A stretch of 64,000 nucleotides of DNA. Origin: Bacteroides stercorirosoris. GTDB lineage: Bacteria; Bacteroidota; Bacteroidia; Bacteroidales; Bacteroidaceae. Each line of letters opens with the position of its first letter. Position 1 is the stretch's first letter. Under the pieces are notes generated by a model. That model did no database searches and was not told the DNA's origin. It saw only the letters and a list, made by a program, of their open reading frames with translations. The position numbers and the translations under genes were made by a program. The stretch lies in NCBI RefSeq assembly GCF_900142015.1, contig NZ_FQZN01000005.1:1-64000 (forward strand), in the 5' to 3' direction. Below, one piece after another: positions 2,281 to 32,810 of the stretch.

Positions 2281-2314
2281 ATTCAATCTTCTTTTTATTA
2301 TAATTTAGAACGTT

Positions 2315-4249: not shown

Positions 4250-4261
4250 TATTCAAATTCT

Positions 4262-5239
4262 TTAAAATAAAGGTTTCTTTGCCTTTTTGGAAGCTGAATT
4301 CCCCTTGACTGTTGGCCAGCCTTCTTTCCAAATCACCTTGTCCAGCAATAAAACCCTACCGGAAGGATTGGCAACGCTGACTCCATGATACAAAACCCAG
4401 TCATCACCGTTTTTATCCGCCACGAGTTCCGCATTATGTCCGGTACCCACAAAATCCTTGTTCTTATGAATCAATATTTCATGATTATTTTCGAGCATTA
4501 GGTTACCCTTCTTATCCACATAAGGCCCCCATAGGTTATCAGAACGTCCTACGACTGTCTGGTATGTGCTCTTCAGCCCTTCACAGCATGTACCGGTAGA
4601 AGCAAACAGATAATAATAGCCGTTCCTTTTATGAATATAGGTTCCTTCATACGCTGTTCCGGCTATTTGTTTCTTTATCGCTCCCGGAGCTACGGCAAGT
4701 CCATCCTGACTCAATTCTATCCCGTAAATTCCCCGGAAACTTCCCCAAAACAAATATTTCTTCCCATTTTCTTCAATATAAAAAGGATCGATAGAATTTT
4801 GTACGCCAATATCACTACTACGGAACATCATTCCGTGATCAATAAAAGGACCTTCCGGCTTTTCTGCGGTAGCCACTCCAATGCCGCAAGTCCATTCTCC
4901 TCCCCAACGGGACATCGAATAATAGAGTATATATCTATTGCCTATTTTATTGATATCCGGAGCCCATAGTCCACCTTTAGGTTCAAAAGTAGGACGCGTT
5001 TCTTTGGTGAAAACCGTACCGACAGATTCCCAGTTTATCAGATCTTTTGAACGATGAATAGGCATGTTACGAATATCCTCAGTAGCATATAAATAAAAAT
5101 ATCCATCATCCCCCTTAATTACCGTAGGATCCGGAAGACTATAATCTACTACCGGATTCTTGTAGCTTTTGACCGGACCTCCTGCCATAAGCAATACGCT
5201 TATGGCAGGAAATACCAATGCCAGAAATAATCTTCTCAT
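4262..5239 (-). CDS. GH43 arabinanase/arabinofuranosidase
   Basis: A 325-residue five-bladed beta-propeller hydrolase acting on alpha-L-arabinofuranosyl (or xylosyl) linkages. With the start at MRRLFLALVF, which gives a clean signal peptide, the catalytic triad falls at Asp37 (LPDPTV, base), Asp151 (NSIDPFY, pKa modulator) and Glu198 (YEGTYI, acid). WAPDI at 92-96 and the GTGHNAEL motif support the family. An in-frame ATG five codons upstream (5254) is an alternative start. A still longer frame to 5371 lies inside the neighbouring gene and is rejected. The start is 4 bp from the preceding stop, so translation is probably coupled. The WAPD and NSIDPF features resemble endo-arabinanase branches, but linkage specificity cannot be read from sequence. 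Confidence 0.9.
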   Translation of the reverse strand: MRRLFLALVFPAISVLLMAGGPVKSYKNPVVDYSLPDPTVIKGDDGYFYLYATEDIRNMPIHRSKDLINWESVGTVFTKETRPTFEPKGGLWAPDINKIGNRYILYYSMSRWGGEWTCGIGVATAEKPEGPFIDHGMMFRSSDIGVQNSIDPFYIEENGKKYLFWGSFRGIYGIELSQDGLAVAPGAIKKQIAGTAYEGTYIHKRNGYYYLFASTGTCCEGLKSTYQTVVGRSDNLWGPYVDKKGNLMLENNHEILIHKNKDFVGTGHNAELVADKNGDDWVLYHGVSVANPSGRVLLLDKVIWKEGWPTVKGNSASKKAKKPLF

Positions 5240-5243
5240 AGAC

Positions 5244-6554: not shown

Positions 6555-6592
6555 CGTTTTTACTATTTAATTGTTTTGATTGTTATTCAGAC

Positions 6593-8383: not shown

Positions 8384-8457
8384 ATCAATAACTATTTCAT
8401 AATTCATATACAATATTTTCAACTAACATATACTGTTCTAAATATATATTTTTACAC

Positions 8458-9930: not shown

Positions 9931-9946
9931 AAGCCTATCTGTTTAA

Positions 9947-11743: not shown

Positions 11744-11758
11744 TTTATTATAAATTTA

Positions 11759-14700: not shown

Positions 14701-14884
14701 CAACAGTAGCGTCGCCTTTGAGCACTACATTCACACCAATAATTGGTTCACCGGCAGCATCTTTTATTACACCGGAAACATTCTTCGCAATTTGCCCATA
14801 AGCATAAGCCGAAATTGCACATAGGAAAAACAAACATGACCAAAACCGGCCAACAAGTACTACTACTTTTTTTCTGTTTACCAT
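11759..14884 (-). CDS. SusC-like TonB-dependent outer-membrane glycan importer
   Basis: A 1041-residue TonB-dependent transporter of the SusC/RagA family, moving oligosaccharides across the outer membrane. Order of parts: signal peptide (to about residue 30), carboxypeptidase-D-like domain (about 35-110, with GVIKDAAGEPIIGVNV), TonB-box-like EEVVVVGYGTMKKKDVTGSV (about 115-135), plug domain with VRGPASLTAST and LKDASSTAVYGSKGSAGV, then the 22-strand barrel. The C-terminus IWTLGVNVTL fits an outer-membrane insertion signal. It is the first gene of the eight-gene segment running to the left. A promoter with a shared operator lies upstream (14990-15055). Confidence 0.96.
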   Translation of the reverse strand: MVNRKKVVVLVGRFWSCLFFLCAISAYAYGQIAKNVSGVIKDAAGEPIIGVNVVLKGDATVGTISDIDGNYSLKIPDKKGILVFSFIGYKTLEKAVPSGIAKLDVILEEDTELLEEVVVVGYGTMKKKDVTGSVSHIGKEIMETKVATNAVDFLKGNIAGVNISVDNNASGGGSIQVRGPASLTASTSPLIVLDGNIYYGNISDINPNDIESMDVLKDASSTAVYGSKGSAGVVMITTKRGTSEKPVINLSAKVGIATLLDIPDLPTPQQYIQRRADYWKTIDYFKPSADQKGLGYYDDPNNLPDGVTQEQWAAYDPSFSGDYVETWLTRLQLANIEIQNYKAGKTVDWRDHVYRSGFRQDYNLSASGKSSRTNYYTSLGYTNNEGYKVGDSFRTVRARVNLDTEITKWLKVGVNAQFADRGNKDVVADTGNADVMSPYGTMYEEDGSLKIYPTDDARIVNPLLSNQVDQKFYKTQTLTSTIYGKLTLPYGLSFQTNFNTRYGWRKQYYYKPDIKPGIVEGGEASRDEYSDYEWVIDNMLKWNYTLAKIHNLDVTLLYSAEKYQFWNTVANNEGFIPSGVLGFHNMNAGINPVTSSNDEAQTGNALLARLNYSLMDRYLLTASVRRDGFSAFGLENPYGTYPAFAFGWRMSEEDFIQKLGFVDNLKLRFSWGENGNRDIGRYAALSRLKVTDAIIGGENIKGVYTNNLANGKLKWERTRAMNLGLDFGLLGNRLSGVLDMYYNKTTDLIVNRSLPTITGFSSVIANLGQVDNKGLELTLTSVNVSIPKKVHWSTTFIYSTNKNTIKHLYGKMVDVKDAEGNVIGEREDDDVQNGWYIGHGIKDIYYYKWTGVWQLGEEEEAKKYGKQPGDPKLLDVDQNGKITEDDKVWLGSRTPRYRMSLRSDLNLFDCLDFSFVLRGEFNFLGEDNLRRNEDNRFFDRSNSIMTEYWTPWNPNNEYARLGANCGNPSVLIFKKRDFVRMQNISLAYTFPKTLLKKFAIENLKVSLNVDNAFVLTKWNYYDPENMGTCPRIWTLGVNVTL

Positions 14885-14989: not shown

Positions 14990-15055
14990 CAAAGGTAGCG
15001 AAATACACATTTGACAGATGTAACAAGTGTCCCATTAAATAGAAAAAGCGTCTCA
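14990..15055 (-). promoter_or_regulatory. susC promoter with putative HTCS operator
   Basis: On the minus strand a -7 box TACCTTTG (plus 14990-14997) fits the Bacteroides consensus TAnnTTTG. Upstream lies a direct repeat, read on the plus strand as GTCCCA (15029-15034) and GTCTCA (15050-15055), 21 bp apart start to start. The near half-site starts 32 bp after the end of the -7 box. The same geometry occurs at three other PUL promoters. That this is the HTCS binding site is inference. No good -33 TTTG is seen, which fits an activator-dependent promoter. Confidence 0.7.
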
Positions 15056-15228
15056 ATCGACCATTATATATACTAAAATCTGTTCAGAGTGAGATATCCG
15101 TCCTATACAAGTAATTTTTCAAGCGTAATGACACATAATGGCGTAGTTTTAAAGATTCGGACAGGAGGCAAAAATAGAAGCGCATGCGTTTTCAGGATGA
15201 TTGCAAATCCTAATACACAATTCCGACG

Positions 15229-15275
15229 AGAGGTGATAAATGAAACGGTACTCTGCCGTTTCATCTACCACCTCC
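15229..15275. other. Long imperfect hairpin in the susC-GH115 intergenic region
   Basis: A perfect 9-bp stem (ATGAAACGG at 15240-15248 with its complement at 15256-15264) is extended by outer arms GAGGTG and CACCTC, giving about 17 paired positions around a 7-base loop. There is no T tract on either strand, so it is not a simple terminator. The rest of 15060-15340 holds no convincing gene; the open frame there has no family features. Confidence 0.5.
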
Positions 15276-15344
15276 AAAATTGAAAAGCAGCGAACCATCC
15301 TTGCTAAGGCATTTAAGCAACTAACTGATTATCAGCAGATAGTA

Positions 15345-15460
15345 TTTACACGCTATTTACCTTATAATGTAAAAGCATTTACCGCAGGATGTAACGACCT
15401 TTATCCTTTATTGTAACGGCCTTTACCCCTTATTGTAACGACCTTTACCTCGGCATGTAA
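15345..15460. repeat. Array of eleven alternating half-sites, 22-bp period (TTTAC / TGTAA)
   Basis: TGTAA occurs at 15368, 15390, 15412, 15434 and 15456, spaced exactly 22 bp. TTTAC, whose core is the complement, occurs at 15345, 15356, 15378, 15422 and 15444, with TTTAT at 15400. So eleven half-sites follow one another about every 11 bp. The first two face the same way and the rest alternate. The consensus unit resembles TGTAACGACCTTTACC plus six bases. It lies between the GH115 3' end and the susC promoter. Confidence 0.75.
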
Positions 15461-15555
15461 ATGAAGTGATCATTTGGGGTAAACAGAATTTTCACGAGAG
15501 GAAACAACCATGTACTTATAAGGTAAAGAAAGATGTTCACATCGGAAAGGAATGA

Positions 15556-15612
15556 AGCTACGGGCTACAAGTAGCTGCGCTATATTCCGAAAGGTACTTG
15601 TAGCCCATAGCT
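15556..15612. other. 20-bp-arm inverted repeat just downstream of the GH115 pair
   Basis: Arms at 15556-15575 and 15593-15612 are inverted copies with two mismatches (shared GGGCTACAAGTA) around a 17-base spacer. It starts about 20 bp past the GH115 stop at 15633. It could end or protect the GH115 transcript, although no T tract follows. It may also be an extragenic palindrome. Confidence 0.6.
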
Positions 15613-15632
15613 TGTAACTGATTTGATATGCA

Positions 15633-18587
15633 CTATTTTGTTTTAGTTGGTCTGGGACCAAGGTATGAACGCTGCATACCCCCAAAATCTAATACAACTT
15701 TCTGTAGAACGGTGCCCGGATCTCCACACAACACTTTCACAGTATGTTTGCCCGGCTCATTAATATGCAATGTCGTTTTATTTATTCGACAATTCTTCAA
15801 CACGCTCTCATACCATATTTGCGCATATTCAAAAGAAGAGGTGGAAGGATTCATCACCGGACCATCGTCAATGCAGACTCCATACTTTGTTTCAATATTT
15901 GTAGCCTCATGACCTGCATAATCCTTATCGGTGCTCAAAGTAAATGTAGGCAGCACATACGTATATACATCTACAGAACCTTGCCCAAAAGCATAAAAGT
16001 CATATTCAACACGCGGCACGGTGCTGTTGCCCGTTCTCTGTACCGGTGCTATGGGATTACCCAGTTGTACTGAAGCATCTTCAAAGCCTAAGTTCGGAAT
16101 CAGTTTAATCTTAATATCCTCATTTTCAACTTTTCGATGATAATCAGCCGCATTAATGGAAACATATCCATTATGTTCCACGAACAAGGTATCCAGTTCT
16201 TGCAAAGAGGGAGAAGATGGATTGAAGACCGAAACATATATTTTATCTTTTCCGGCATTTCCGGCCATCACATCAATCACTCCTGACACGCGTTCTCCTA
16301 CAGGTACCCGACTCCAGTCAACAGACACCCAAATACGTTCTTCCTGCTTTGTTACACCTTCTTTTCTATTAACAATAATCCAATCGTCAGAAACTTCAAG
16401 GTTCCACTCCAACGGGGCAAGGCCTTTATTAAATAAGTCAAAATAATAAGATTGACGGAAATATGTGTTGAAAGCAGGTAAAGTGCGAATACTGCTCTTT
16501 CCCCGAAGCACATCCTCTCCCTCAGTCAACACTCCCAAAGACGCAGCTGCAGGCAAACTGACATCCAACAGTTTCGGGAGTTCAAAATAGGAAGCCGCAA
16601 AACCCTGGCGTGTCGTCATTACCGGATTCCACTTCCCGTTCAACAGCGAATTGTATCCTTGGGTTATTATTTGCAAACTATCATAACAGGCTTTCGCCTC
16701 TTTAGCTATACTATCCGTAGCTGCCCTTCCCTGCAATGCGTACCAGCGGTTTTTCTGTCCGTAAAGCACCATTTTGTTTAAGTATTCACAACCTTTCACC
16801 GGATAATACAGGAGTTGATAGAACCCGGCTTTCTCACTTTCCGGCAATTGTTGCAAAATGGAATCCACTTTTGTTCCGATGCGGTCATATTCCGCCAAAC
16901 GGGTATCTGCCTCACGATAGTTCGTGAACGAGAAATCGGTATCAGTATTTCGCTCCTTGCCATGCTTATTGGTGGACCACTGATATCCCCACCCCATGAG
17001 TTCGGGCTTACGGGAAAAGGATTGGTGGTAGAACGTGGTGGTTATATCCCGAAAATCTTCATAATACTCCTGTCCGAACATGTCGGCCAGCCAACGGGCC
17101 TGACAGGTAGATATATTATGATAACCGAACGCATTAATATCGTAAGCCATGGACAAAAACAGATTCATTGAGAACTCACAAGACTTTATATCACCTACAT
17201 TCAAAAGCCATACGCGGTCTGCTGTCGCGTCGTACGCTTTACGGAGTTCCTCATACATCAATGCAGGGGATATGGTACTCATCCATAAGTAGTCATGCGG
17301 CTTTCCCAGATATGAAACATGGTAATAGACACCTGCACGACCGGAGCGTTTCTGTTCACGCGGACTGCTCAGGCGTTTCATATAACCGTAATTGTCATCA
17401 GGCCAAATAATCGTAACATCATCCGGCAACTCAAGCCCGGCATTGTATACATCCAACACCTCTTTATAAGGAGTAAAGGCTTGCGGGATTTCATTGGCTG
17501 GCTTCTTTATCACATCAACCAGCAATTGCCGTTGAGCATTCAACGCATCGCCCAGAAGTTTGACACGCTCCTTCATGTCACTGCTTCCGCCCATAGCCTT
17601 ATCATGCAGACCACGTAAGGCCAGTGTATACACATTCTCATAAGGAGAATTATCTACGACCCTTTGCCTCAAAACCCTGTCAAGCATTTCTTTGTTATTC
17701 ACATAGTCCCAGTCTCCCATGGTTTTCTTATCCCACTCACTGGCATTGTTGAACAATAACGGTTCACAGTGCACAGACCCCATCACAATGGCAAAGCTAT
17801 CTGCTACCAATTTATTTTCAGGAATCTTATTGAAAGCTGTGGAGGCTTCATGCATTGCAGGACAAAGATAGTTCGCTTTCAACCGCAAAAGGAGTTCACA
17901 AACTTTGGCATAAGTTTTAGGACCAATATTACCACGCTCTTTCTCGAAATTTGTTTTAGCCCATCGGAGCAATCCCCAATCCTCATCATTTATAAATATG
18001 CCACGGTATTTTACTGTGGGTTCTTCGGAAGTCATCTTTTGAACTTTAAGACACAATTCTTTCCGTTTCGCTACGGGAGCATCCGCCCACCAGTACCACG
18101 GAGAAACGCCTATCGACTCTGAGATTGAGAATAAGCCATAGGCCGTCCCCCTGCGGTCACTTCCAACCACAACCAATGCTTTCTTTACTCCGGGGAAAGG
18201 GTTACGGACTACTTCTATATGGAAGCTCTCCCATTTGTCTTTCAAAGTGCTTACATCCAGTTTCTTTTTGAGAATAAGCTTGTCTATCAACTCATTATGT
18301 CCCAATGTACCCACAATTATACAATTCGAAGACATCTCTTCCACAGCCTCGCTAACTGCTATTTCGCGGTCGGTCACCAACCGTACGTCATTACTAAATA
18401 GATGAGCCGATTTCTTTATTACTTCAAAATCCCGGATATCGTAATAAAGCTTGGCTGCCTTCCCCGACTTTACCAATTCAAATTCATCAGCTCCACTTCC
18501 ACCTTTCGTCAATGAAACTTGAGCCCAAACTGTTGATACACCTGACAGACATGCCACCAGGATTAAAATCACTTTTAATTTCGTCAT
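15633..18587 (-). CDS. GH115 alpha-glucuronidase (copy 1)
   Basis: A 984-residue exported enzyme of family GH115, which removes glucuronic or 4-O-methylglucuronic acid from internal or terminal positions of xylans and arabinogalactans. A signal peptide (MTKLKVILILVACLSG) is followed by the N-terminal alpha/beta domain (VVVGSDRRGTAYGLFS), the TIM-barrel block (SPWYWWADAP, KYRGIFINDEDWGL, RLKANYLCPAMHEA, DVTIIWPDDNYGY, WLLNVGDIKSCEF) and C-terminal beta domains ending FGGMQRSYLGP. It starts 8 bp after the stop of the second GH115, so the two form one transcript. By eye the pair is about half identical, so they likely have different regiospecificity. Confidence 0.95.
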   Translation of the reverse strand: MTKLKVILILVACLSGVSTVWAQVSLTKGGSGADEFELVKSGKAAKLYYDIRDFEVIKKSAHLFSNDVRLVTDREIAVSEAVEEMSSNCIIVGTLGHNELIDKLILKKKLDVSTLKDKWESFHIEVVRNPFPGVKKALVVVGSDRRGTAYGLFSISESIGVSPWYWWADAPVAKRKELCLKVQKMTSEEPTVKYRGIFINDEDWGLLRWAKTNFEKERGNIGPKTYAKVCELLLRLKANYLCPAMHEASTAFNKIPENKLVADSFAIVMGSVHCEPLLFNNASEWDKKTMGDWDYVNNKEMLDRVLRQRVVDNSPYENVYTLALRGLHDKAMGGSSDMKERVKLLGDALNAQRQLLVDVIKKPANEIPQAFTPYKEVLDVYNAGLELPDDVTIIWPDDNYGYMKRLSSPREQKRSGRAGVYYHVSYLGKPHDYLWMSTISPALMYEELRKAYDATADRVWLLNVGDIKSCEFSMNLFLSMAYDINAFGYHNISTCQARWLADMFGQEYYEDFRDITTTFYHQSFSRKPELMGWGYQWSTNKHGKERNTDTDFSFTNYREADTRLAEYDRIGTKVDSILQQLPESEKAGFYQLLYYPVKGCEYLNKMVLYGQKNRWYALQGRAATDSIAKEAKACYDSLQIITQGYNSLLNGKWNPVMTTRQGFAASYFELPKLLDVSLPAAASLGVLTEGEDVLRGKSSIRTLPAFNTYFRQSYYFDLFNKGLAPLEWNLEVSDDWIIVNRKEGVTKQEERIWVSVDWSRVPVGERVSGVIDVMAGNAGKDKIYVSVFNPSSPSLQELDTLFVEHNGYVSINAADYHRKVENEDIKIKLIPNLGFEDASVQLGNPIAPVQRTGNSTVPRVEYDFYAFGQGSVDVYTYVLPTFTLSTDKDYAGHEATNIETKYGVCIDDGPVMNPSTSSFEYAQIWYESVLKNCRINKTTLHINEPGKHTVKVLCGDPGTVLQKVVLDFGGMQRSYLGPRPTKTK

Positions 18588-18594
18588 ATTCCTT

Positions 18595-21510
18595 TCAATT
18601 TATTCTTGTTGTTTCCGGTCCCATATAGGAACGTTTCAAGCCTCCGAAATCCACAACTATCTTTTGCAGCATCATTCCCGGATGGGCACAATAGATTTTT
18701 ACGGTGTGCTTTCCCGGCTTATTAATGAAATGGGTAGTCTTATTGATTCTACAATTTCTCAACACACTCTGAATCCACGGAGTACTATAATATGTCGCCC
18801 CCGCTTCCGGCAAATATACCGGACTGTTATCTACCATCACTCCATAGCGTGAACCATGCTCATTATCTAACGGGAAGATAGGCATCATATAGGTATAAAC
18901 ATCTACCGGCCCCGTCTGAAAAGAATAGAAATCATACTCCAAAACCGGATATTTATCGCCACGCACCGGAGCTACATAGTTAGAAGTCAGTATCAGCCCA
19001 TCCAGATAGGGCGTCTTTGCAAATGCATCTCCTAAACGCATCACTTTATTATCAAATCCCAATCCTTCGACCACGTCAAATTTTATATTCGCATCCTCAC
19101 GCTTCCGGTGAAAACCTGTAGCGTCAATAGAAACATAACCATTATTTTCCACATATAGTCCTTTCAACTCTTCCACCGAAGGAGTTTCCGGATTAAAGAC
19201 TGATACAAACACTGTCTGCTTTTCACCACTCCCTGAAGAAATATCAATAGATCCTGAAACAGACTCTCCAACAGGAACTTTGCTCCAATCTACAGATACA
19301 TTGATACGCTCCTCTGAATATGTCGCCCCGCTCTTTTTATTAACCAATATCCATGGGTCAGAAGGAACAGCTTTCCACTTCAATTTTCCCATGCCGCTAT
19401 TAAATACATCCACATAATAAGATTGGGGTAGATATTTATTAAAGCATGGTATCACATGCACATTGGAGACTCCTTTCATATTGTCCGCAGCTTCACAGGA
19501 GACTCCCAAAGTCGGTACCGGACTCAATGAAACGGAATCAGTCCGCGCACGCTCAAAGGAACGCGCTCCACCATGAATCAAGGACATCATTCCCTGCCAT
19601 TTGCCATTCAACAAGGAGTTATATCGCTTCGTTATAATCTCCAGGCTATCGCCATAGGCTTTCACCCGACTCCGCAGTAAATTAGCCGCAGATCTTTTTT
19701 GCGAAGCATATAGCCTATTTTTCTGGGCATTAAGAGTCATTTGGTTAACTAATGCCGCTCCCTTCACATTGTAATATACCAACTGGAAAAATGCGGGTAC
19801 GGCTTCTTTATCCAATTTATTCAAGATAGCCTCTGCCTTTGCTGATATACGCTCATAAGCTGCCAAACGCTTGTCCGCTTCCCGATAGTTCTGAATGGAA
19901 AACTCAGTATCTGTGCTTCGTTCCATATATTCCGGTTTGCGGGCAAATGCCAATTGGAAATAGGTCTGTTGGATATCTGACAAATCTTCTCTATACTCCT
20001 CTCCAAACATCCGACAAAGAAAATCTACACTGTGCGTATTTATATTATTGAAATTAAAACGCTCTATATCATAAGCCATATCCATAAACAAAGTGATGTG
20101 GTATTCCGCAGGCTTAATATCACCGACATTCACCACCCACAGCCTGTCGGCCGTGGCACGATACGCCTTTTCCAGTTCCTCATACATCAGCGCAGGAGGA
20201 GTAGTTGCTATCCATAAATAATGCTTCGGAGGTCCCCAATAAGAAACATGATAATAGACTCCGGAACGACCGGAACGCTTACGTTCTTCTGAGTTACTTA
20301 ATCTTTTTATATATCCGAAATCATCTTCAGACCATACAATAGTCACGTCATCCGGCAAAACCATTCCGTGATCGTAGGTTTCCAAAACCTCCTTATAAGG
20401 GGTAAACGCTTGGGGTATCTGATTGGCCGGTTTCGAAATTTCACTTTCCAAAATATTCCGTTGGTCGTCAAAAGCCTTTTCAAGCACGCGCGCCTGCTCT
20501 TCCAACGACAAATTCCCTGCCATCACCGCATCATGAATGCCTCGCATTGCCAATGTATAAACATTCTCGAACTTTCCATTCTCCTGTACGCGTTTGCGCA
20601 ATACCTTATTAATGCCATCACGGTTCTTTACGTAATTCCACTCGCCCATAGTACTTCTATCCCATTCACTTGCATTGTTAAATAACAGAGGCTCGCAATG
20701 TACCGACCCCATCACAATTGCAAAACTGTCCGCAACCAACTTATTCTTAGGATAATGATTGAAGGCTTTTGTGCAAGAGTGCATTGCAGGACACAAGTAA
20801 TTTGCTTTCAGACGAAGCAACAACTCACAGATCTTAGCATACGTTTTAGGACCTATATCACCGGTTTCCGGTTCAAACACTTTTGAGGCCCAAGGTTTTA
20901 ATCCCCAATCTTCATCATTAATAAAAATTCCTCTATATTTTACCGAAGGCTCTTTCGACACAATAGTATTTACTTGCAAACGCAGTTCTTTCTTTTTAAC
21001 CACCGGAGCATCCGCCCACCAATACCACGGAGATACTCCAATGGCTTCTGAAACAGAGAAGAGACCATAAGAAGTTCCTCTACGGTCACATCCTGCTATC
21101 ACCAACGCTTTTCCGACACCGGCAAACGGATTATTGATTATAGTAATTACATATTGTTCCCAACCATTTTTAATTGAGCTTATATCTAGTTTACCTTGGG
21201 CAACCAACTGATTGATATATTTATTTTTCCCTATCATCCCAACAAGTATGACATCCTTGCCGGAAGGCATTTTCTCCTTTAATTCCAACCGTTTCCCTGT
21301 AACGCGTTCAACATCTTCTACAAACAGCTTCACTGTTTTCTTTACCGATTCTTCATCCGACCTGTCATAGCATACTACCGATTTTGAGGCTGAAGTGACA
21401 ACAGGAAAGACATCCTCCCCTTGTTGTTTATCTACTAAAACAAGCTGAGAATAACTACTCACAGTGAAACTGAATAATAACAATAATAATAAACTGATTT
21501 TCTTCATCAT
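18595..21510 (-). CDS. GH115 alpha-glucuronidase (copy 2)
   Basis: A 971-residue GH115 enzyme with the same blocks as its neighbour (SPWYWWADAP, KYRGIFINDEDWGL, DDVTIVWSEDDFGY, WVVNVGDIKPAEY) and the same C-terminal end (FGGLKRSYMGP). The start is placed at MMKKISLLLLLLFSF, which gives a normal signal peptide. An ATG at 21579 adds a second hydrophobic stretch and is less likely, though it also lies downstream of the predicted transcription start. It is the first gene of the GH115 transcript, with a shared-operator promoter at 21620-21685. One clear difference from copy 1 is a shorter stretch around the IQQTYFQLAFARKPEYMERS segment. Confidence 0.94.
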   Translation of the reverse strand: MMKKISLLLLLLFSFTVSSYSQLVLVDKQQGEDVFPVVTSASKSVVCYDRSDEESVKKTVKLFVEDVERVTGKRLELKEKMPSGKDVILVGMIGKNKYINQLVAQGKLDISSIKNGWEQYVITIINNPFAGVGKALVIAGCDRRGTSYGLFSVSEAIGVSPWYWWADAPVVKKKELRLQVNTIVSKEPSVKYRGIFINDEDWGLKPWASKVFEPETGDIGPKTYAKICELLLRLKANYLCPAMHSCTKAFNHYPKNKLVADSFAIVMGSVHCEPLLFNNASEWDRSTMGEWNYVKNRDGINKVLRKRVQENGKFENVYTLAMRGIHDAVMAGNLSLEEQARVLEKAFDDQRNILESEISKPANQIPQAFTPYKEVLETYDHGMVLPDDVTIVWSEDDFGYIKRLSNSEERKRSGRSGVYYHVSYWGPPKHYLWIATTPPALMYEELEKAYRATADRLWVVNVGDIKPAEYHITLFMDMAYDIERFNFNNINTHSVDFLCRMFGEEYREDLSDIQQTYFQLAFARKPEYMERSTDTEFSIQNYREADKRLAAYERISAKAEAILNKLDKEAVPAFFQLVYYNVKGAALVNQMTLNAQKNRLYASQKRSAANLLRSRVKAYGDSLEIITKRYNSLLNGKWQGMMSLIHGGARSFERARTDSVSLSPVPTLGVSCEAADNMKGVSNVHVIPCFNKYLPQSYYVDVFNSGMGKLKWKAVPSDPWILVNKKSGATYSEERINVSVDWSKVPVGESVSGSIDISSGSGEKQTVFVSVFNPETPSVEELKGLYVENNGYVSIDATGFHRKREDANIKFDVVEGLGFDNKVMRLGDAFAKTPYLDGLILTSNYVAPVRGDKYPVLEYDFYSFQTGPVDVYTYMMPIFPLDNEHGSRYGVMVDNSPVYLPEAGATYYSTPWIQSVLRNCRINKTTHFINKPGKHTVKIYCAHPGMMLQKIVVDFGGLKRSYMGPETTRIN

Positions 21511-21619
21511 ACTTAATAGTATTAGGGTTTGACTTATTCTCAGAAAGCATATAATACTATAAAAGGAATATGTTTTCATAGCATTAACTTAACTCTGAGA
21601 CTCCATTAAATGGATGTGG

Positions 21620-21685
21620 CAAATTTAGGTCCTCTGCCTATTCAGTCATAAAAGAAATATCCCAATAAATAAAAGAAACGTCTCA
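21620..21685 (-). promoter_or_regulatory. GH115-operon promoter with putative HTCS operator
   Basis: The minus-strand -7 box TAAATTTG (plus 21620-21627) is preceded by the direct repeat ATCCCA (21659-21664) and GTCTCA (21680-21685), spaced 21 bp. The 27-base block starting at 21660 differs from the block at the susC promoter (from 15030) at only four positions. The distance from -7 box to operator is identical to that at susC. Confidence 0.72.
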
Positions 21686-21735
21686 AACTCTCAAAAACCA
21701 CATTCATCGCATGAGAATATAATATTCGCCCATTT

Positions 21736-23160
21736 TTATTGAATAACCACAAGAGGAATTCCTAAGATAAAAGCAATTTTTTTCAACTCCTTTACTTTAT
21801 GTCCTACGCCGATAGCACAATGGTGTGAAGGTCCTGCCTTACTCCACTGCTCCATAAAATGACGAGCTCCACAAGGAAAACGGTAACGACTATTAGTATT
21901 GCCAATGTGTAATGTTTCTCCCGGAACAGCTTCTCCTTCAGTTGCCAGTAAGAAAAATCCATCCACTCCTTCACAGACAGATAAAAGAGTTACTTTTCCT
22001 TGTTTCACACTCATCTGTATAGATAAGCCCTTTCCCGGTTTCCCATGATACAACGGAAGCGGAACCAACTTGACCTGACCTTCGGCAATAGCGAAATGAG
22101 CCGGACCATCATGTCCTAACAATATGACATCATCGTCAAAATCCATAGCATAGAATTCCGAAAAGGAACCTCCCGAACCTAACAACGATAATATTTTCAT
22201 CGCTTGTGCATTTTTCACCTCGCACTCACCGGCAACGGGTATACCGTATCCAGTTAAAAGCGTATTGCCTGCTATAACCGAAGTCACAATATTCTCATAA
22301 TCGTTCCCTTGAAATCCTTCATAATAATACGCCATCGCAGTCAATCGATGGGATTTTACCAGTTTATCCAACGCAACAGAAGTCTTAGCCGCCCTCGTCA
22401 GTTCGATAGATTCACACAATGAAGACACTTCAAACTTTTCATGAAACTCTTTTAATTTCTCATTCATTTCCATGTCAGTCACTTCGTCTCTCAAAGCCTT
22501 CAACTCACACATTTCCAACATTTCTATATGAGTGCCGAAAGTTGCGCTCAAACGCGTCACATCCGTATAAACGTCAAGCATTCCACAATAATAGTGGCCT
22601 AAAATGCCCAGTCTGTTATTACGCAATCCATAAACTACGCGAGACGCAGCAACCCAAGAGGTCACTTCCTCCCAAACCGATTCATCAGACAGATAGCCGG
22701 TGACAATGTCATACTTAATGCCAGCTCGGTTGAACACACTCGCAAATTCCGGAACAGAACATGCCTGACAATGCGCCAACCACTCACCGGTCATCTTCCC
22801 TCTGTCAGACATTGAATTTACAAAAGCATAATCAATAGCCGAAGTCGGCTGCACATTCAGCATCACAATAGGTTTGCCAACTACCTGTGCTACCGGCAAT
22901 ATTGTGGAAGACAGAGCATAAGTAGAAATAAACAAAAATACGACCTCGACATCCGCCTGTTTCAAAAACATTGCGCTCTGTCTTGCCTTCTCCGGTGTAT
23001 CCACCATTCCTACATTTATAACTTCGGCATCCATTGCACCTATTTGGGAGGATATGCTGTCCTGATAACTCAACAAACGGGCAAGAAGCCCATCAAATTG
23101 CTTCCAATATGTATCCAGACCTACTCCTAAAAGACCAACTTTTACTTTCTCTCGTGTCAT
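21736..23160 (-). CDS. L-arabinose/fucose-isomerase-family protein
   Basis: A 474-residue protein without a signal peptide, resembling L-arabinose isomerase (aldose to ketose). The four metal-site residues of that family can be placed: Glu in YYYEGFQG, Glu in VAGECEVKN, His in LLGHDGPAH and His in IGVGHKVKE. An N-terminal alpha/beta domain starts [14 protein letters not shown]. It is cytoplasmic, 31 bp downstream of the HTCS gene and probably co-transcribed with it. This is unusual, because PUL neighbours are mostly exported. It may convert a monosaccharide released by the PUL. Arabinose is the natural guess given GH43 and GH127, but related proteins act on other sugars, so no gene symbol is given. 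Confidence 0.8.
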
Positions 23161-23191
23161 GATTCTTCTTTTTTATAATTAATTCATAAGT

Positions 23192-26100
23192 TTATCCCAC
23201 AAAATCTTTCGGCAAAACACCGAATTGTTTCAAAAAGCACTTAGCAAAATAAGATGGCGAATTAAACCCAACGCGGTAGCAAACCTCATTAATACGGTTC
23301 TCACCTTCCTTAAGCAATTGAGCAGCCTGTTTCAGACGCTCCAACCGCAAATATTCATTCGGACTCAAATCCAGAATTCCCTTTATTTTCCGGTAGAAAC
23401 TGGAACGGCTCATGTTTAGGATATCCGCGATATCATCCATGCCAAAATCCGGATTATGCAGATTGGCGAGAATTATCTCATTCAAGTGCTTGATAAACTC
23501 TTCATCCGCTTTCGTTAAAGCCATTGTATTAACCGCAACGAATGGAGACTTTGCAAATGTTTGACGCAATTTTTCCCGATTGGCTATCAGGCTGGAAATG
23601 CATGCATACAGGTATTCTACCGAAAAAGGCTTCTCTATATAGGCATCCGCACCCAGTTCCAGACCTTCGATTTTCGACTGGATATTCGTCTTCGCAGTAA
23701 GCAAAATAACCGGAATATGGCTATAATCAAGTTTTGACTTTATCGTCTTGCAAAGTTCGAAGCCATCCATTACCGGCATCAGTACATCACTTACTACCAG
23801 ATTTACATAATTGTCATCCAAAGTCCGCAAGGCTTCTTCTCCGTTGGAGGCAGTCAAAACGGAATAATACCCTGATAACTGGCGAGTAATAAATGCCTGC
23901 ATATCCGAGTTATCTTCTACTACTAAAATAGTAGCCTGATTACTCTTATTATTATCCAATACCCCTCTCTGTTGCTCCACGACTTTATCCGCATTGACCG
24001 ACATTGTTTCATGCGCCAATGTAATTGCAGAATCTTGTATCATAGGTAAAGTTAAACAGAAACTATTCGTCAGTTCTCCCTTATCCATTTGCAAGGTACC
24101 TTGATGGAATTCAGCCAAAGAACGGGAAAGAGCAAGTCCGATTCCTGTGCCTGTAGCCACTTGCCGCTCTCCCTCTTCAGTAAAGCGTACAAAAGGCTGG
24201 AATATTTTTTCTTTCATAGCATCCGGAATAATTGCCCCGTCATTTACCGTACGAATCCGGAATACGTTCTTCTCAGCTCGCTGATCTACTTCGAGGGAAA
24301 TTTGTACATAAGACTCAGAATACTTCACTGCATTATTCAACAAATTACTTATTATCTTCGTAAGGGCTTCTTTATTGACATGAGCCAACAAATCTCCTTC
24401 CGGCAATTGCAATTTGAAATCCAGCCCTTTCTGCTTTGCCAAAGAAGTAAAACGTAAATAGGTTTCGCGTAAAAGTTCTGTAATGTTACATTCGGCAAAA
24501 TTCAAACGGAATCCCTGTGTTTCCGTCTTACGGAAGTCAAGTAGCTGATTTGTCAAGTTTAACAAACGTTCGGTATTCTGCTTCATAATGTTCAAGTCTT
24601 CCCTCGTTTCAGTATCGACTTGTTTTTTCAGAATAATATTTTCCAAAGGTCCCTTTATCAGAGTCAGCGGTGTACGTATTTCATGTGCCACATTAGTAAA
24701 GAAATCTATTTTTGCATTATAAACTTCACGTTCCTTTTTCTGTTCGAACTTCTCCATCTGTCGACGATGTTTACGATTGTTGCGGCGCTTAAAATAAAGA
24801 ATAGCATAGACAGAGCAGCCTATAGCCAGCAATGCATACGCAAGATAAGCCCATATTGTGAGGTAAAAGGGGGGAAGAATATGAACTTCTACAGCAGCCT
24901 CTTCTTTATTCCAAAGTCCATTTCCATTAGAAGCTCTAACCCGAAATGTGTAGTCTCCATAAGTCAGGTTAGCATAAGTAGCCACCGGACTTTCACCTAC
25001 GGGCAACCATTCTTTGTCAAAACCTTCTAACTTATACATAATTTTATTCATCCTCGGAGCTTGATAACTCAATGCAGCAACTCTGAAAGAAAAAGAATTC
25101 TGATTATGCTTCAACACTATTTTATCAGTAAAAGTGATGTTTTTGGTCAGCGGAGAATTTTGTTCGCCTGCCAATACTTCTTTTCCAAATAGAGAAAAAT
25201 CAGTAATTACTGCCGGAGATAAGTATTTATTTTCTGTAAATGTAGTTGGTTTGAACGACACAAAACCTTCGATTCCTCCAAGATAAATCGTTCCAGACTC
25301 ATCTTTATAACTGGACTGATAATTGAATTGGTCACAAAGTAACCCGTTAGCTGTAGTAAAAACTTTCATGTGTTCTGTAGTAGGGTCGAAGCAGACCAAT
25401 CCAGCATTTGTAGTCAACCAGATCAATCCGGAATTATCTTCCACCATTTGGTAAACGACATCATTAGGTAACCCCTTGCGAGAATTGTAGCCAACAAAAC
25501 TCTCGTCTTCACGATTAAATCGACAAAAACCACCCCCTTGAGTAGTCAGCCAAATTTGTCGGCGAGAATCTTCAAAAATGCTCGATACCTTATTATAAGA
25601 CAAACTCTTTTTGTTTCCTTCATCGTGCAGATAGTTTTTCCATTTCTTCTGATTGACATCATAGCAGAACGCACCGTTTGCATAAGTAGCCAACCAAAGA
25701 TTTCCGTAAGAGTCTTCCTTTACATCATATACAAAACAACCGTTCAATTCAGCGATTTGGTCAAAATCATCTGTTTGCAAATTATAATGTAATAATCCAA
25801 ACATTGTGCCCAAATAAATTTCTCCTGCTGCCGTCCTGCAAATAGAAAAGACACTATTATCTATCAACGACCCCGAGCTACTGTCTTTCATATAGGTTTT
25901 CAGCACTCTACCTGTATGAGTATCTACGATATGTAAACCTTTCGAAAAGGTTCCTACCCACAACTTATCATCCACCAAACATAACCCGTGAATATTGGTA
26001 AACTCGGTACTAGGAGCAAAAAAATGAAACTCTTTAGTACGAGGATCAAAACGGTTTAATCCGCCATCTTCTGTCCCTATCCAAAGAATACCTTTGGTAT

Positions 26101-27208
26101 CCATACAAAATTCACGTACCCGTTTCCCATGCATACCATTTTTATCATTTACGGGATAATATTTTTCAAAGTAAGTATAAGAACGAGGGTAATAATTTAT
26201 CCCTCCAAAGTACGACCCAATCCAGACCCCACCTTCTTTATCTTTACACAAAGAATAAATGGCATTATCCGATAAAGAGTAAGGATCATAAGATGAACTA
26301 CATAGATGAGTGTATTTATCAGTACGAAGATTATAAATATAAATACCGGATTCAGTGCCTAACCATAATTCATTATCCGACATCAACATCAAATTCCTAC
26401 AATAAATAGCCTCTCCATTCTCATCTTCCGATAAAAGATTGCGCATCTTGCCGGAAGTCAGATTCAATTCTTTCAAACCTTCTTTAGCAGAACCTATATA
26501 CAAACAGTTATAAGGTCCTGAAACGATATCAGAGACAACGTCATTTACATACTCAGAACCATCTTCCTGACCGCAATAAGGCAAAAGAGTCTTCAAATCA
26601 TCTTTTGAATAAAACAACCCATCGCCATAGAAACCTATCCATAAGACACCACTATTATCAAACGTGAAGCTCTTTATATTTGTAGTTATATGAGGATAAT
26701 CGCTTAATGGAAAATTAGATAAAGAATGGGTGTCCAAATTATAACAAAACATACCTTGCGCCTCAACCGCTATCCAAATCTGCCCGTCAGCATCACTTGA
26801 AATCATAGATATGGCTCTATCAATCCCTATATTTGTAGAAGTTTGTTCTACAAAGTGTTCAAAGACATCTCTATCCGGATAATAAATATAAAGCCCCACA
26901 TCCGTACCAACCCAAATATTTCCTTTCTTGTCCTCATAAAGAGCTGTCACAAAATTATTACCGATACTTTTATTATTAAGTTCATCATACTTAAACTTGC
27001 GGAAAGAAAAACCATCATAGCGATTCAGACCATCTTTAGTACCGAACCACATAAAGCCTTTCCTATCTTGCAAAATAGAAGTAACAGAGTTTTGAGACAG
27101 CCCATTCTGAATATTAAGACTTCTAAAATAGTAATGCCCTTCGGCAGCTTGTAGGAAGTAAAATACACTTTCCAACAGACAGAACAAAAAAATAAATGCG
27201 TTTCTCAT
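23192..27208 (-). CDS. Hybrid two-component system regulator (HTCS) of the PUL
   Basis: A 1338-residue one-chain sensor and regulator. Order: signal peptide (about 1-22), two beta-propellers built from Reg_prop repeats (about 25-700, many WIGT.GGL motifs), Y_Y_Y domain (about 720-785), transmembrane helix (about 790-812), histidine kinase with His842 in NVAHEIRTPLT, ATPase domain with GTGIGLALSR, receiver domain with Asp1141 in VVSDVLMPVMDG, and a C-terminal AraC-type helix-turn-helix (about 1240-1338, YLRLERLKQAAQLL and GFNSPSYFAKCF). The periplasmic part should bind an oligosaccharide from the PUL glycan, and the AraC part should bind DNA. Its own promoter carries the shared direct repeat, which suggests autoregulation. 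Confidence 0.96.
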   Translation of the reverse strand: MRNAFIFLFCLLESVFYFLQAAEGHYYFRSLNIQNGLSQNSVTSILQDRKGFMWFGTKDGLNRYDGFSFRKFKYDELNNKSIGNNFVTALYEDKKGNIWVGTDVGLYIYYPDRDVFEHFVEQTSTNIGIDRAISMISSDADGQIWIAVEAQGMFCYNLDTHSLSNFPLSDYPHITTNIKSFTFDNSGVLWIGFYGDGLFYSKDDLKTLLPYCGQEDGSEYVNDVVSDIVSGPYNCLYIGSAKEGLKELNLTSGKMRNLLSEDENGEAIYCRNLMLMSDNELWLGTESGIYIYNLRTDKYTHLCSSSYDPYSLSDNAIYSLCKDKEGGVWIGSYFGGINYYPRSYTYFEKYYPVNDKNGMHGKRVREFCMDTKGILWIGTEDGGLNRFDPRTKEFHFFAPSTEFTNIHGLCLVDDKLWVGTFSKGLHIVDTHTGRVLKTYMKDSSSGSLIDNSVFSICRTAAGEIYLGTMFGLLHYNLQTDDFDQIAELNGCFVYDVKEDSYGNLWLATYANGAFCYDVNQKKWKNYLHDEGNKKSLSYNKVSSIFEDSRRQIWLTTQGGGFCRFNREDESFVGYNSRKGLPNDVVYQMVEDNSGLIWLTTNAGLVCFDPTTEHMKVFTTANGLLCDQFNYQSSYKDESGTIYLGGIEGFVSFKPTTFTENKYLSPAVITDFSLFGKEVLAGEQNSPLTKNITFTDKIVLKHNQNSFSFRVAALSYQAPRMNKIMYKLEGFDKEWLPVGESPVATYANLTYGDYTFRVRASNGNGLWNKEEAAVEVHILPPFYLTIWAYLAYALLAIGCSVYAILYFKRRNNRKHRRQMEKFEQKKEREVYNAKIDFFTNVAHEIRTPLTLIKGPLENIILKKQVDTETREDLNIMKQNTERLLNLTNQLLDFRKTETQGFRLNFAECNITELLRETYLRFTSLAKQKGLDFKLQLPEGDLLAHVNKEALTKIISNLLNNAVKYSESYVQISLEVDQRAEKNVFRIRTVNDGAIIPDAMKEKIFQPFVRFTEEGERQVATGTGIGLALSRSLAEFHQGTLQMDKGELTNSFCLTLPMIQDSAITLAHETMSVNADKVVEQQRGVLDNNKSNQATILVVEDNSDMQAFITRQLSGYYSVLTASNGEEALRTLDDNYVNLVVSDVLMPVMDGFELCKTIKSKLDYSHIPVILLTAKTNIQSKIEGLELGADAYIEKPFSVEYLYACISSLIANREKLRQTFAKSPFVAVNTMALTKADEEFIKHLNEIILANLHNPDFGMDDIADILNMSRSSFYRKIKGILDLSPNEYLRLERLKQAAQLLKEGENRINEVCYRVGFNSPSYFAKCFLKQFGVLPKDFVG

Positions 27209-27243
27209 AAAAATAATTTTTCAATAAGCAGATAAACACACCT

Positions 27244-27309
27244 CAAAAATAGACAAAATCCAAACCCAACAATGAAAAATTCATCTCAATGAATAAAAAT
27301 ATCATCTCA
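27244..27309 (-). promoter_or_regulatory. HTCS promoter with putative autoregulatory operator
   Basis: The minus-strand -7 box TATTTTTG (plus 27244-27251) has a possible -33 TTG at 27270-27272. The direct repeat ATCTCA (27283-27288) and ATCTCA (27304-27309) is spaced 21 bp and stands at the same distance from the -7 box as in the other three PUL promoters. Confidence 0.68.
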
Positions 27310-27339
27310 TTCTGTTTTAACAAGAAAATAATTATAATA

Positions 27340-27366
27340 TAGGTAGCACCTCAATAATGCTACCTA
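27340..27366 (-). terminator. Probable terminator after the GH2 gene
   Basis: A stem of about nine pairs (TAGGTAGCA with TGCTACCTA) around a short loop lies 12 bp past the GH2 stop. On the minus strand it is followed by an AT-rich, T-biased stretch. Confidence 0.55.
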
Positions 27367-27377
27367 AATCTGGAAGA

Positions 27378-29195
27378 TTATTTTTTCAATGAATTGCAAA
27401 TACGCGCATTTATCTCTTTGACACGCTTTTCATCCAGTTTTATCACCTTGCGGTCATAAGTTATCAGACCGTTCACTTCCACCTCTACGTCAGTGGTCTG
27501 TGTATAAACGGCTGCTGAAAATCCTCTGTCTATCATCTGATACAGCATATCCGCATACTTCACATATTCATCCGTAGCCTCTTTGGAAGAATTAAACTGA
27601 ACATATCCCCAGTTACGGTTCGGTTCCCAAAGATGGTCTTTCAAAACGAGGCCGATGCCACCGTACTCACCCAAGACCGTCGCACGCTGCGCATCATACA
27701 GATACATCTCCGGCGCAGGATAATTATGAAGATCAAGCATATCTCCACAAGTGTAATGATTACCGCCGCTTGCCGGATTCACAAAACGGGTAGGATCATA
27801 TTGTTTCGTCCATTCAGCTATCTCAACAGTCTTGAATTGTCCCCATGCCTCATTGAACGGCACCCAAGTGCCAATGCAGGGATAAGAATAAAGACAATCC
27901 ATAATTTCTTTCCACTCTTTCCGATAATAATTCTCGGATTCCGCAGAACGTTTCATCTCAGTACCATCAAAATATTTGCGGTTCTGCCATTGCGGGCTAC
28001 GGTCTCCACTCGGCATATCCTGCCATACAATGATTCCAAGCTGGTCGCAATACGTATACCAACGGGCAGGTTCCACCTTGATATGTTTACGAATCATGTT
28101 GAAACCAAAATCTTTCGTTTTCTGGATGTCATACAGCAATGCCTCATCCGTAGGAGCTGTATATAAGCCATCAGGCCACCATCCTTGGTCAAGAGGGCCA
28201 AACTGGAATAAAGCCTCATTGTTCAGTTCCAAACGTACAATACCATTGGCATCCCGACGGGTAGAATATTTACGCATGGCGGCATAACTATCCACTTTAT
28301 CTACCACCTTTCCATCACTCTTCAAAGTCACCTTCAACGTATAAAGAAAGGGCGAATCAGGACTCCACAACTTAACAACCTCAGGCATGGCTACTTCTAC
28401 AGCCTCTCCATTGATACTTTTACCCGTAGCCACCAGTTGCTTACCATCGTAAACATTCACCTCTACAAAATCAGACGCACAGTTTGCATTCAGTTCAGCC
28501 TTTACAGTCAGCTGGTTACGGTCAATATCGGGAGTGATACGAAGATTCTCAATATGTTTTCCGGCAACAGGTTCCAACCATACAGTTTGCCAGATTCCGG
28601 TTACAGGAGTATACCAAATGCCTGCCGGTTTGTTGACCTGTTTACCACGTGGTTGAGGTCCTTTGTCCGTAGGATCCCAGACTTTCACTACCAGGCTATT
28701 ATTTCCTTTAGCGGTCAAAGCAGGGGTTATATCGAAAGAGAACGGGGTAAATCCTCCAGTATGGCTTCCAACCTTCACATCATTCACCCATACATCTGTT
28801 TTCCAATCGACAGCACCAAAATGCAACAAAATCCGCTTGCCTTTCCAACTTGATGGTATTTCAAAACTCCGTTGATAAATCACTTCCTGATTCTCTGTCA
28901 CTCTCTTTGCTACTCCGGACAAGGAGGATTCCACTGCAAACGGAACAAGAATTTTACCCTCAAAATCAGTTGGAATGCTTCCACCTTTATCAATAATGGC
29001 ATAATCCCACAAACCATTCAGGTTCTTCCAATCATTACGTTGCATGATGGGTCTTGGGTATTCCGGTAATACTTCGGATGGATTAATCTGTTCGGCCCAA
29101 TTTGTCTTTATCCTATCACCGGCAGGTTTCCATTGAGCCAGACTCTCTAAAACAAAAAACGTTACTAATAATAATGAGATGAATAATCTTTTCAT
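27378..29195 (-). CDS. GH2 glycoside hydrolase (beta-galactosidase/beta-glucuronidase type)
   Basis: A 605-residue exported GH2 enzyme. Order: signal peptide (MKRLFISLLLVTFFVLESLAQ), sugar-binding jelly-roll (about 45-200, with VDWKTDVWVNDVKVG), immunoglobulin-like domain (about 215-310), and TIM barrel with acid/base Glu449 in FNEAWGQ and nucleophile Glu510 in GEYGG. RKHIKVEPARWYTYCD and GIIVWQDMPSG are typical of the family. It is shorter than classic LacZ and lacks the extra C-terminal domains. It has its own promoter and terminator but shares the PUL operator geometry. The actual sugar (galactose, glucuronate, arabinopyranose or other) cannot be told from sequence. Confidence 0.92.
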   Translation of the reverse strand: MKRLFISLLLVTFFVLESLAQWKPAGDRIKTNWAEQINPSEVLPEYPRPIMQRNDWKNLNGLWDYAIIDKGGSIPTDFEGKILVPFAVESSLSGVAKRVTENQEVIYQRSFEIPSSWKGKRILLHFGAVDWKTDVWVNDVKVGSHTGGFTPFSFDITPALTAKGNNSLVVKVWDPTDKGPQPRGKQVNKPAGIWYTPVTGIWQTVWLEPVAGKHIENLRITPDIDRNQLTVKAELNANCASDFVEVNVYDGKQLVATGKSINGEAVEVAMPEVVKLWSPDSPFLYTLKVTLKSDGKVVDKVDSYAAMRKYSTRRDANGIVRLELNNEALFQFGPLDQGWWPDGLYTAPTDEALLYDIQKTKDFGFNMIRKHIKVEPARWYTYCDQLGIIVWQDMPSGDRSPQWQNRKYFDGTEMKRSAESENYYRKEWKEIMDCLYSYPCIGTWVPFNEAWGQFKTVEIAEWTKQYDPTRFVNPASGGNHYTCGDMLDLHNYPAPEMYLYDAQRATVLGEYGGIGLVLKDHLWEPNRNWGYVQFNSSKEATDEYVKYADMLYQMIDRGFSAAVYTQTTDVEVEVNGLITYDRKVIKLDEKRVKEINARICNSLKK

Positions 29196-29223
29196 GGTAT
29201 CTAACTATTTAAATGTTCGAAAG

Positions 29224-29289
29224 CAAAGCTAACCATAAATTCATTTTTCAAATAACGTAATTGACTCAATAAATGCAATTATCTTTTCA
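29224..29289 (-). promoter_or_regulatory. GH2 promoter with weaker HTCS-like operator
   Basis: The minus-strand -7 box TAGCTTTG (plus 29224-29231) has a TTTG 17 bp upstream (plus 29249-29252). GACTCA at 29263-29268 sits exactly where the near half-site lies in the other three PUL promoters, followed by AATAAAT as in them. The far half-site position (29284-29289) reads TTTTCA, a poor match. Confidence 0.55.
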
Positions 29290-31852: not shown

Positions 31853-31941
31853 AATTAAGCGACAAAGGAAACAAAAAGGAAAAGATATAGCAACAAATAA
31901 GTTCAGAAAGTTCAGACTTATCTATGATGAAACACATTGAA

Positions 31942-32715: not shown

Positions 32716-32810
32716 AAGGCTATTAGTTGTTAAATTTATTACTATCTTATGCGAATCAGTAGTTGAATTGGTGCATTATTATTAGGTTATGAATGAAACA
32801 GATGATTATT

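Follow-up and report, generated by a model that had tools for sequence, protein, structure and literature searches.

Four promoters of a Bacteroides stercorirosoris polysaccharide utilization locus carry a two-part 21-bp direct repeat that is very probably the operator of the hybrid two-component system encoded in the same locus

Hybrid two-component systems (HTCSs) are a main class of regulators for glycan use in gut Bacteroides, and, as far as the consulted excerpts of the literature report, few of them have measured binding sites. A polysaccharide utilization locus (PUL) of Bacteroides stercorirosoris raises the question of which regulator reads its promoters and which genes belong to it. 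In the first 64,000 nucleotides of contig NZ_FQZN01000005.1 (assembly GCF_900142015.1), the stretch analysed here as the window, a direct repeat lies upstream of susC, of a pair of GH115 genes, of the gene for an HTCS and of a GH2 gene, and an earlier note on this DNA had read it as a probable HTCS binding site that would define a regulon and show autoregulation. We computed the sites, their repeat units, their placement, their linkage to HTCS orthologues and the scarcity of the -33 promoter element at them. The results make it very probable that the four sites are operators of the HTCS of the same locus, which is predicted to bind them as a dimer, with class II activation and positive feedback.

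On the plus strand the sites follow the pattern CAAAnnTA-N31-RTCYCA-N15-RTCTCA, whose first element is the -7 box, TAnnTTTG on the coding minus strand. Exact copies of this composite were found at the susC, GH115 and HTCS promoters (3 found, 0.00 expected), a number that 0 of 100 shuffles reached. With up to 3 mismatches, just the four sites listed in the earlier note, whose coordinates all proved correct, were found in the window (0.53 expected; 0 of 100 shuffles reached four), the additional one being the copy before GH2. The bare pair RTCYCA-N15-RTCTCA occurred exactly at 15029-15055, 21659-21685 and 27283-27309, where the earlier note had placed it, and at no other position of the window (shuffle mean 0.12; three reached in 0 of 100). 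When up to 2 mismatches were allowed, the pair without the box gave 27 matches in the window against 29.95 expected, which is not above chance, and it was rejected as a genome scan on account of this count. The composite pattern was written after the sites had been seen, and the tests in other genomes outweigh the window shuffles.

All four sites share one arrangement (Table 1). From one half-site start to the other is 21 bp, and the near half-site begins 32 bp past the last base of the -7 box, with 31 bases between them; both distances had been noticed before and were found correct. Read along the minus-strand genes, the distal unit is followed by the proximal unit, then by the -7 box, which comes 31 bases after the end of TRRGAY, and by the ATG. 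The distance from box to start codon is 105 bases at susC, 40 at the GH115 pair, 35 at the HTCS gene and 28 at GH2, so that a TAnnTTTG box of the primary sigma factor (sigma-ABfr) type stands 28-105 bases ahead of every start codon. The fourth copy, described earlier as weaker, is really weak: it has 3 mismatches to the composite, and its two units agree at 9 of 18 bases, compared to 12, 14 and 15 of 18 in the other three sites.

The repeat proved to be larger than its half-sites. It covers about 18 of every 21 bp, and each unit reads roughly TRRGAY-N6-TTYATT. The bases after the near half-site (core CAATAAATA) are alike, as had been observed, but they are the second element of the repeated unit rather than spacer. 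In an alignment of 41 sites (4 from the window and 37 from orthologous loci), the columns with no or almost no variation included 5, 12, 16-18 and 20 for the first unit and 22, 23, 26, 31, 33 and 38 for the second, and the conserved column pairs 5/26, 12/33 and 17/38 each lie 21 apart. The 37 orthologous sites had been chosen by the half-site and box pattern derived from the window, so that conservation is partly due to selection in those columns and not in the others; three near-duplicate loci (L079, L091 and L092) were omitted, as were the sites in which one half reads TGACCT (L077:7135, L078:4794, L079:7054, L082:10678 and L097:10709). The position weight matrix (PWM) of the 37 sites was most similar to itself at a shift of 21 (mean correlation 0.789; at most 0.39 at the other shifts from 15 to 27). 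The DNA-binding domain of an HTCS has two helix-turn-helices (PMC11253607), and we infer from this known fold that the two elements, one turn apart, fit the two helix-turn-helices of one AraC-type domain, and the two units two such domains.

The sites were then scored with models built from other loci. Profile R2, made from the 37 orthologous sites with the own genome excluded, ranked the three strong sites first to third in the 6.27-Mb genome, at E-values from 6e-11 to 2e-8 (susC, 5.8e-11; GH115, 1.4e-9; HTCS self-site, 1.5e-8), with the next match at 0.19. A PWM of the same sites (columns 1-42), applied to about 1.2 Mb of the genome with 1184 distinct TAnnTTTG boxes, placed the self-site, the GH115 site, the susC site and the GH2 site at ranks 1 to 4 (44.0, 41.8, 38.6 and 14.4 bits, respectively), and the next promoter reached 8.1 bits. 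A first profile, R1, made from 41 sites including the four of the window, had been set aside; its own-genome ranking and most of its genus matches are circular.

Across genomes, the site accompanied the HTCS. Profile R3, made from the window's four sites alone, was searched in 119 genomes of the genus (E at most 0.01) and matched in 29 besides the own. Matches were present in 28 of the 31 genomes with an orthologue of the HTCS (at least 57% identity, a line set after the identities had been seen) and in 1 of the 87 without (Fisher p ~1e-22, a value that ignores kinship). Sixty of the 64 matches lay on the orthologue's contig, within 39 kb of it; three of the other four were on other contigs of orthologue genomes, and one was in G030. 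In a family scan of 301 genomes with R2, an HTCS reached 60% identity or more in four genomes, and all four had the site; two of them (G026 and G106) had supplied training sites, and the own genome and G125 were held out. G125, which belongs to another genus, is in no training set and has an HTCS of 64% identity, carries the site 27 bases ahead of its HTCS match, and its locus also holds GH115 (65%) and SusC (63%). R2 also matched, at E at most 0.001, in eleven of the scanned genomes whose HTCSs stay below 60% identity or that have none; most of these matches were weak, and the better ones were in G095, G130 and G262.

The orthologous loci were compared in 29 regions around HTCS orthologues. 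The self-site at the HTCS promoter was found by pattern in 21 of them, and R3 added two (L096 and L102), giving 23/29. All five GH2 orthologues found in these regions (L086, L095, L098, L099 and L102) had a site with at most 2 mismatches just upstream. The sole orthologue of the first GH115 gene (L084) has the site, and a second L084 site follows the second GH115 gene, as the susC site does in the window. The operator thus lies at PUL promoters adjoining the HTCS gene and is conserved with the HTCS, and the repeat withstood the comparison of orthologous promoters that the earlier note had called for. Together, the linkage to orthologues, the sites at orthologous HTCS and GH2 genes and the published 21-bp direct-repeat form strongly support the assignment to the HTCS.

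The same tests delimit what defines the regulon. The short composite, RTCYCA-N15-RTCTCA with its box, was rejected for this purpose: with at most 2 mismatches it occurs at 17 sites in the whole genome (0 with the pattern reversed), 3 in the locus and 14 elsewhere, and the whole two-part unit separates these. The short RTCYCA-type form is thus no definition of the regulon, which the whole unit delimits better. Two of the 14 outside matches are exact and 12 near, and for 5 of them another HTCS gene is no more than 10 kb away, which would suit sites read by a paralogous HTCS, or by several HTCSs with a TGAGAC-type preference, without a private regulon. We regard this as improbable, since the next promoter scores 8.1 bits on the whole unit, below even the GH2 site, site presence tracks the HTCS orthologue across genomes, and the nearest DNA-binding domains among the HTCSs examined share 55 and 52 of 97 residues. 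As far as the sequences go, the four promoters are most likely the regulon of this HTCS, autoregulation included, and the letters of the operator are largely peculiar to this regulator, the geometry not.

The geometry was assessed by a motif-free period test, in which repeats (at least 11/16 bases identical, offsets 19-24 bp) were counted upstream of intergenic TAnnTTTG boxes. In 35 regions around other HTCS genes of the genome, a 21-bp repeat was found at 10/181 boxes (Poisson p 3e-11), compared to an average of 0.41 boxes and a maximum of 2 for periods other than 20-22, and its placement peaked 20-23 bp before the -7 box. The letters can be quite different, as in the repeat at L138 (TTTGTCCACCTC). 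At HTCS loci across Bacteroidota (47 of 80 loci; L215-L238 and nine of L159-L214 were dropped by hand), it was found at 8/191 boxes (0.71 for other periods), two of them in Flavobacterium (L171 and L201); the placement was broader, with peaks 14 and 21 bp before the box, and period 22 was also raised (4 boxes). In 20 control regions (L239-L258), which include some other sensor kinases and, in L254, a weak AraC-domain match, the count was 3/130 boxes, compared to 0.47 for other periods (p 0.01). Either the 21-bp geometry may be used by further kinds of regulator besides HTCSs, or HTCS targets may be present among the controls. These results bear on a further explanation, that the repeat is an AT-rich feature common in Bacteroides promoters, such as curvature or an UP-like element. 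The T-rich units just upstream of the -7 box and the excess in the controls would agree with it; however, the period of 21 is sharp at HTCS loci, TRRGAY and TTYATT recur at their positions in orthologues, and 1 of 87 non-orthologue genomes matched, which leaves this explanation hardly credible.

Several results weigh against the assignment or narrow it. Related genomes are dependent samples, the 31 orthologues include two partial matches (G042 and G052), the protein scan scored few candidates per genome (5), and three orthologue genomes (G026, G052 and G108) gave no R3 match. The self-site is absent in 6/29 orthologous loci (L095, L098-L101 and L103); in these, a site lies directly after the HTCS gene, and before GH2 where GH2 was found (L095, L098 and L099). 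Orthologues of the second GH115 gene that lack the first as neighbour have no site with at most 2 mismatches directly before them, and therefore the GH115 link is not general. In G095 a site stands before a sulfatase gene, yet the HTCS relatives are 30-33% identical; an orphan site and a regulator swap are candidates. The difference between HTCS regions and controls in the period test is not significant (Fisher p 0.25), and therefore that test shows the geometry and not its confinement to HTCS loci. Finally, the GH2 site is at noise level genome-wide (7th, E 0.41 with R2). Together with its mismatches and low unit identity, this would fit a chance match or a decayed relic, with GH2 controlled otherwise. 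Once conditioned on the -7 box, however, the site is 4th of 1184, and besides the five GH2 orthologues, two further loci, fetched because of their site, also have it before GH2; we therefore consider a chance or relic site unlikely, although of the alternatives weighed here it is the least unlikely.

The placement of the operator relative to the core promoter suggests how it would act. The -7/-33 consensus is described in PMC7366714. About 20 bp separate the end of the proximal unit from the -7 box, so that the unit lies where a -33 element would stand, and this element is mostly missing: a TTG ending 18-22 bp before the -7 box was found at 3/41 operators, which are mutually related and include the 37 orthologous sites, compared to 37/130 control boxes (Fisher p 0.005). 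Direct-repeat half-sites, a proximal half on the -35/-33 region and a weak or absent -33 element are the features of an AraC-like class II site, and since the proximal unit occupies the -33 place, the arrangement fits class II activation from an overlapping site, as predicted from its position. The accessible text of the literature searched contained no statement that an HTCS repeat replaces the -33 element at a fixed distance from the -7 box, and Fig. S3 of PMC5061871, which boxes predicted BT0366 sites and -7 boxes, may show the distance; among the literature matches listed, TAnnTTTG did not occur. The kind of operator is thus already known, and the motif with its exact placement is a new detail.

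Table 1. Composite promoter-operator sites and genes of the locus (window positions).
Feature	Position	Strand	Details
Composite promoter-operator, susC	14990..15055	-	distal unit 15038-15055, proximal unit 15017-15034, -7 box TACCTTTG 14990-14997
Composite promoter-operator, GH115 pair	21620..21685	-	distal unit 21668-21685, proximal unit 21647-21664, -7 box TAAATTTG 21620-21627
Composite promoter-operator, HTCS gene's own promoter	27244..27309	-	distal unit 27292-27309, proximal unit 27271-27288, -7 box TATTTTTG 27244-27251
Weak composite promoter-operator, GH2	29224..29289	-	distal unit 29272-29289, proximal unit 29251-29268, -7 box TAGCTTTG 29224-29231
HTCS gene, 1338 aa	23192..27208	-	Reg_prop propeller, Y_Y_Y, HisKA, HATPase_c, receiver, AraC-type HTH_18 (Pfam)
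AraC-type DNA-binding domain of the HTCS, residues 1257-1336	23201..23440	-	Pfam HTH_18 1260-1336, HTH_AraC 1257-1288
susC transcription unit (inferred)	256..14884	-	SusC, SusD, sulfatase, second SusD, WbsX-like, GH43, GH127, 676-aa protein
GH115 pair	15633..21579	-	Pfam GH115 twice; 7-bp gap
HTCS and sugar-isomerase-like gene (21736-23160)	21736..27208	-	31-bp gap; inferred single unit under the self-operator
GH2 enzyme, 605 aa	27378..29195	-	Pfam

The regulator in question is an HTCS, in which a propeller and Y_Y_Y sensor, HisKA, HATPase, a receiver and an AraC-type helix-turn-helix were found in one polypeptide by Pfam, and its AraC-type domain is the part proposed to read the operator. For two HTCS fragments, repression of promoter binding was reported when phosphorylation was absent, and an S/CHIP-DK motif marks this inhibited, phosphorylation-dependent class (both from excerpts of PMC11253607). 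Because the SHIP part of that motif, the part covered here, was read in the translation of the receiver, the window HTCS may belong to the inhibited class as well. A solved 279-aa fragment of a hybrid two-component system (PDB 12aw chain A) matches residues 6-251 of the 253 residues of the window HTCS from receiver to DNA-binding domain (E 8.9e-62) and is usable for modelling the operator complex.

In the mechanism that we propose, DNA binding, dimer formation, phosphorylation dependence, polymerase contact and the sign of regulation are predictions. The periplasmic sensor would bind an oligosaccharide, whereupon the receiver would be phosphorylated. Two AraC-type domains would then bind next to each other, one per 21-bp unit of the direct repeat, with TRRGAY and TTYATT, about 10 bp apart, each read by one helix-turn-helix. 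The bound dimer, on the place of the -33 element, would recruit the sigma-ABfr RNA polymerase by direct contact, in the class II manner of AraC at araI1-I2. The regulon would comprise four units, namely the susC operon, the GH115 pair, the HTCS gene with the isomerase gene, and GH2, and the HTCS would raise its own synthesis, a positive feedback.

According to the earlier note, the sites would show autoregulation. A putative operator does stand at the HTCS's own promoter, and from this site autoregulation is predicted. Among 37 HTCS genes examined in the genome, the window's is the only one with a convincing self-operator (13/16 repeat with -7 box); the next candidate, at L138 (12/16), was judged by eye to be the operator of a divergent gene seen from behind. 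HTCS starts were set at the first ATG of the frame, a choice by which some promoters may be overlooked. Self-operators therefore seem to be uncommon, though not without precedent: in the accessible parts of the sources, HTCS genes are described as typically constitutive at a low level and not induced (PMC6874557), and BT0366 seems to raise its own transcription (PMC5061871). The sign of regulation is unreadable from sequence, and this, with the usual lack of induction, leaves room for a self-site that represses while the HTCS activates the other three promoters. Against such negative autoregulation stand the distance to the -7 box, which is the same as at the other promoters, and the report on BT0366, and we hold it to be unlikely. 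Because the arrangement of the self-site equals that at the other three promoters, a positive sign appears likelier than a negative one. The self-operator predicts a feedback response, possibly all-or-none.

Beyond this locus, the promoters of HTCSs in Bacteroidota might share one grammar, with two two-part half-sites spaced 21 bp apart, the proximal one about 20 bp before the -7 box and replacing the -33 element, letters that track the two recognition helices, a reach to Flavobacterium and, in some lineages, a positive-feedback self-operator. We put this forward tentatively, as possible rather than probable, and our confidence was lowered slightly because HTCS and control regions do not differ significantly. 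If the grammar were true, HTCS regulons would be readable from sequence. A recognition code from the first helix is a weak lead. By eye, the HTCSs with TGAGAC- or TGAAAC-like units (those of the window, L109, L111, L122 and L124) share the first recognition helix SRxx(F/L)(Y/F)RK, and L131 and L138, with other unit letters, have NKK; exceptions are L137, which lacks the helix, and L126 and L136, which have it and in which no such unit was seen. The Flavobacterium repeats (L171 and L201) are of the type GAATATmTACCAATAT, 13/16, upstream of a -7 box near HTCS homologues. The three control boxes with 21-bp placement are perhaps HTCS targets at a distance or sites of other AraC-type regulators.

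The gaps between the genes point to four transcription units spanning 256-29195. The genes of the susC unit are separated by 12-38 bp, with one overlap, and its operon structure is predicted from these gaps. The SusC-like protein has plug and CarbopepD_reg domains (Pfam), and the 676-aa protein has no Pfam match. The predicted operon has two SusD-family genes (6593-8422 and 9947-11743), with the sulfatase gene (8458-9930) between them, yet one SusC. A eukaryote-like signalling cluster lies next to the PUL on the same strand (30200-41658); its genes encode TPR, PP2C phosphatase, FHA with zinc ribbon, Ser/Thr kinase-like and zinc-ribbon proteins. Outside the species, G095 has a good operator (L151:9916-9981, E 8.7e-8), closely followed by the gene for a sulfatase that shares 69% identity with that of the window. 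G262, of the same family and another genus, has two tandem arrays (L153:9998-10053 and L154:9984-10040) in which 21-bp units resembling ATGGGACTTTTTTCCCATTTG are repeated at least three times. The arrays match the operator model, but no -7 box stands where it usually does, and the genome has no HTCS match at E at most 1e-150. They might be an operator in several copies or a repeat of unrelated origin.

The operator described here has been checked against dozens of orthologous loci, and, as a full operator fixed relative to the core promoter, it offers a direct means of predicting HTCS-controlled operons, their transcript starts and their mode of activation. In Escherichia coli, AraC binds araI1-I2, a direct repeat of half-sites of about 17 bp with a 21-bp period, the proximal half overlapping the -35 region; it activates there in the class II manner, with two helix-turn-helices per half-site. 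The four sites appear to resemble araI1-I2 in their direct-repeat half-sites, 21-bp period and promoter-proximal overlap. They differ from it in their sigma-ABfr -33/-7 promoter, in their membrane-bound, phosphorylated regulator and in their bases. A second relation is to the arabinan HTCS BT0366, a fragment of which binds the promoter of its PUL and its own intergenic region in electrophoretic mobility shift assays, according to excerpts of PMC5061871 and PMC3404733. The self-site and a suggested positive autoregulation are common to both, with binding by the window HTCS predicted; BT0366 is another regulator, and the two are likened on grounds other than its operator letters or spacing. SusR-type operators, also direct repeats upstream of PUL genes, have 67 or 77 bp between tandem sites (PMC3878776), a spacing found in none of the four sites, which all show the 21 bp of HTCS operators. 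The closest precedent is the work of Ravcheev et al. 2013 (PMC3878776) on B. thetaiotaomicron, in whose accessible sections direct repeats spaced 21 bp on average are predicted for 16 HTCSs, upstream of PUL genes, and are proposed to be bound by a dimer, two turns apart on a single face of the DNA. The sites of the window share this 21-bp direct repeat and its position upstream of PUL genes. The motifs were compared by spacing; that paper gives the letters as logos in a figure, and the motif of the window may be among them. What differs from the sections seen is the fixed distance to the -7 box and the missing -33 element, which those sections do not mention. Here, moreover, the site is also present at the promoter of the HTCS gene, and a single HTCS has been followed through 119 genomes of the genus.

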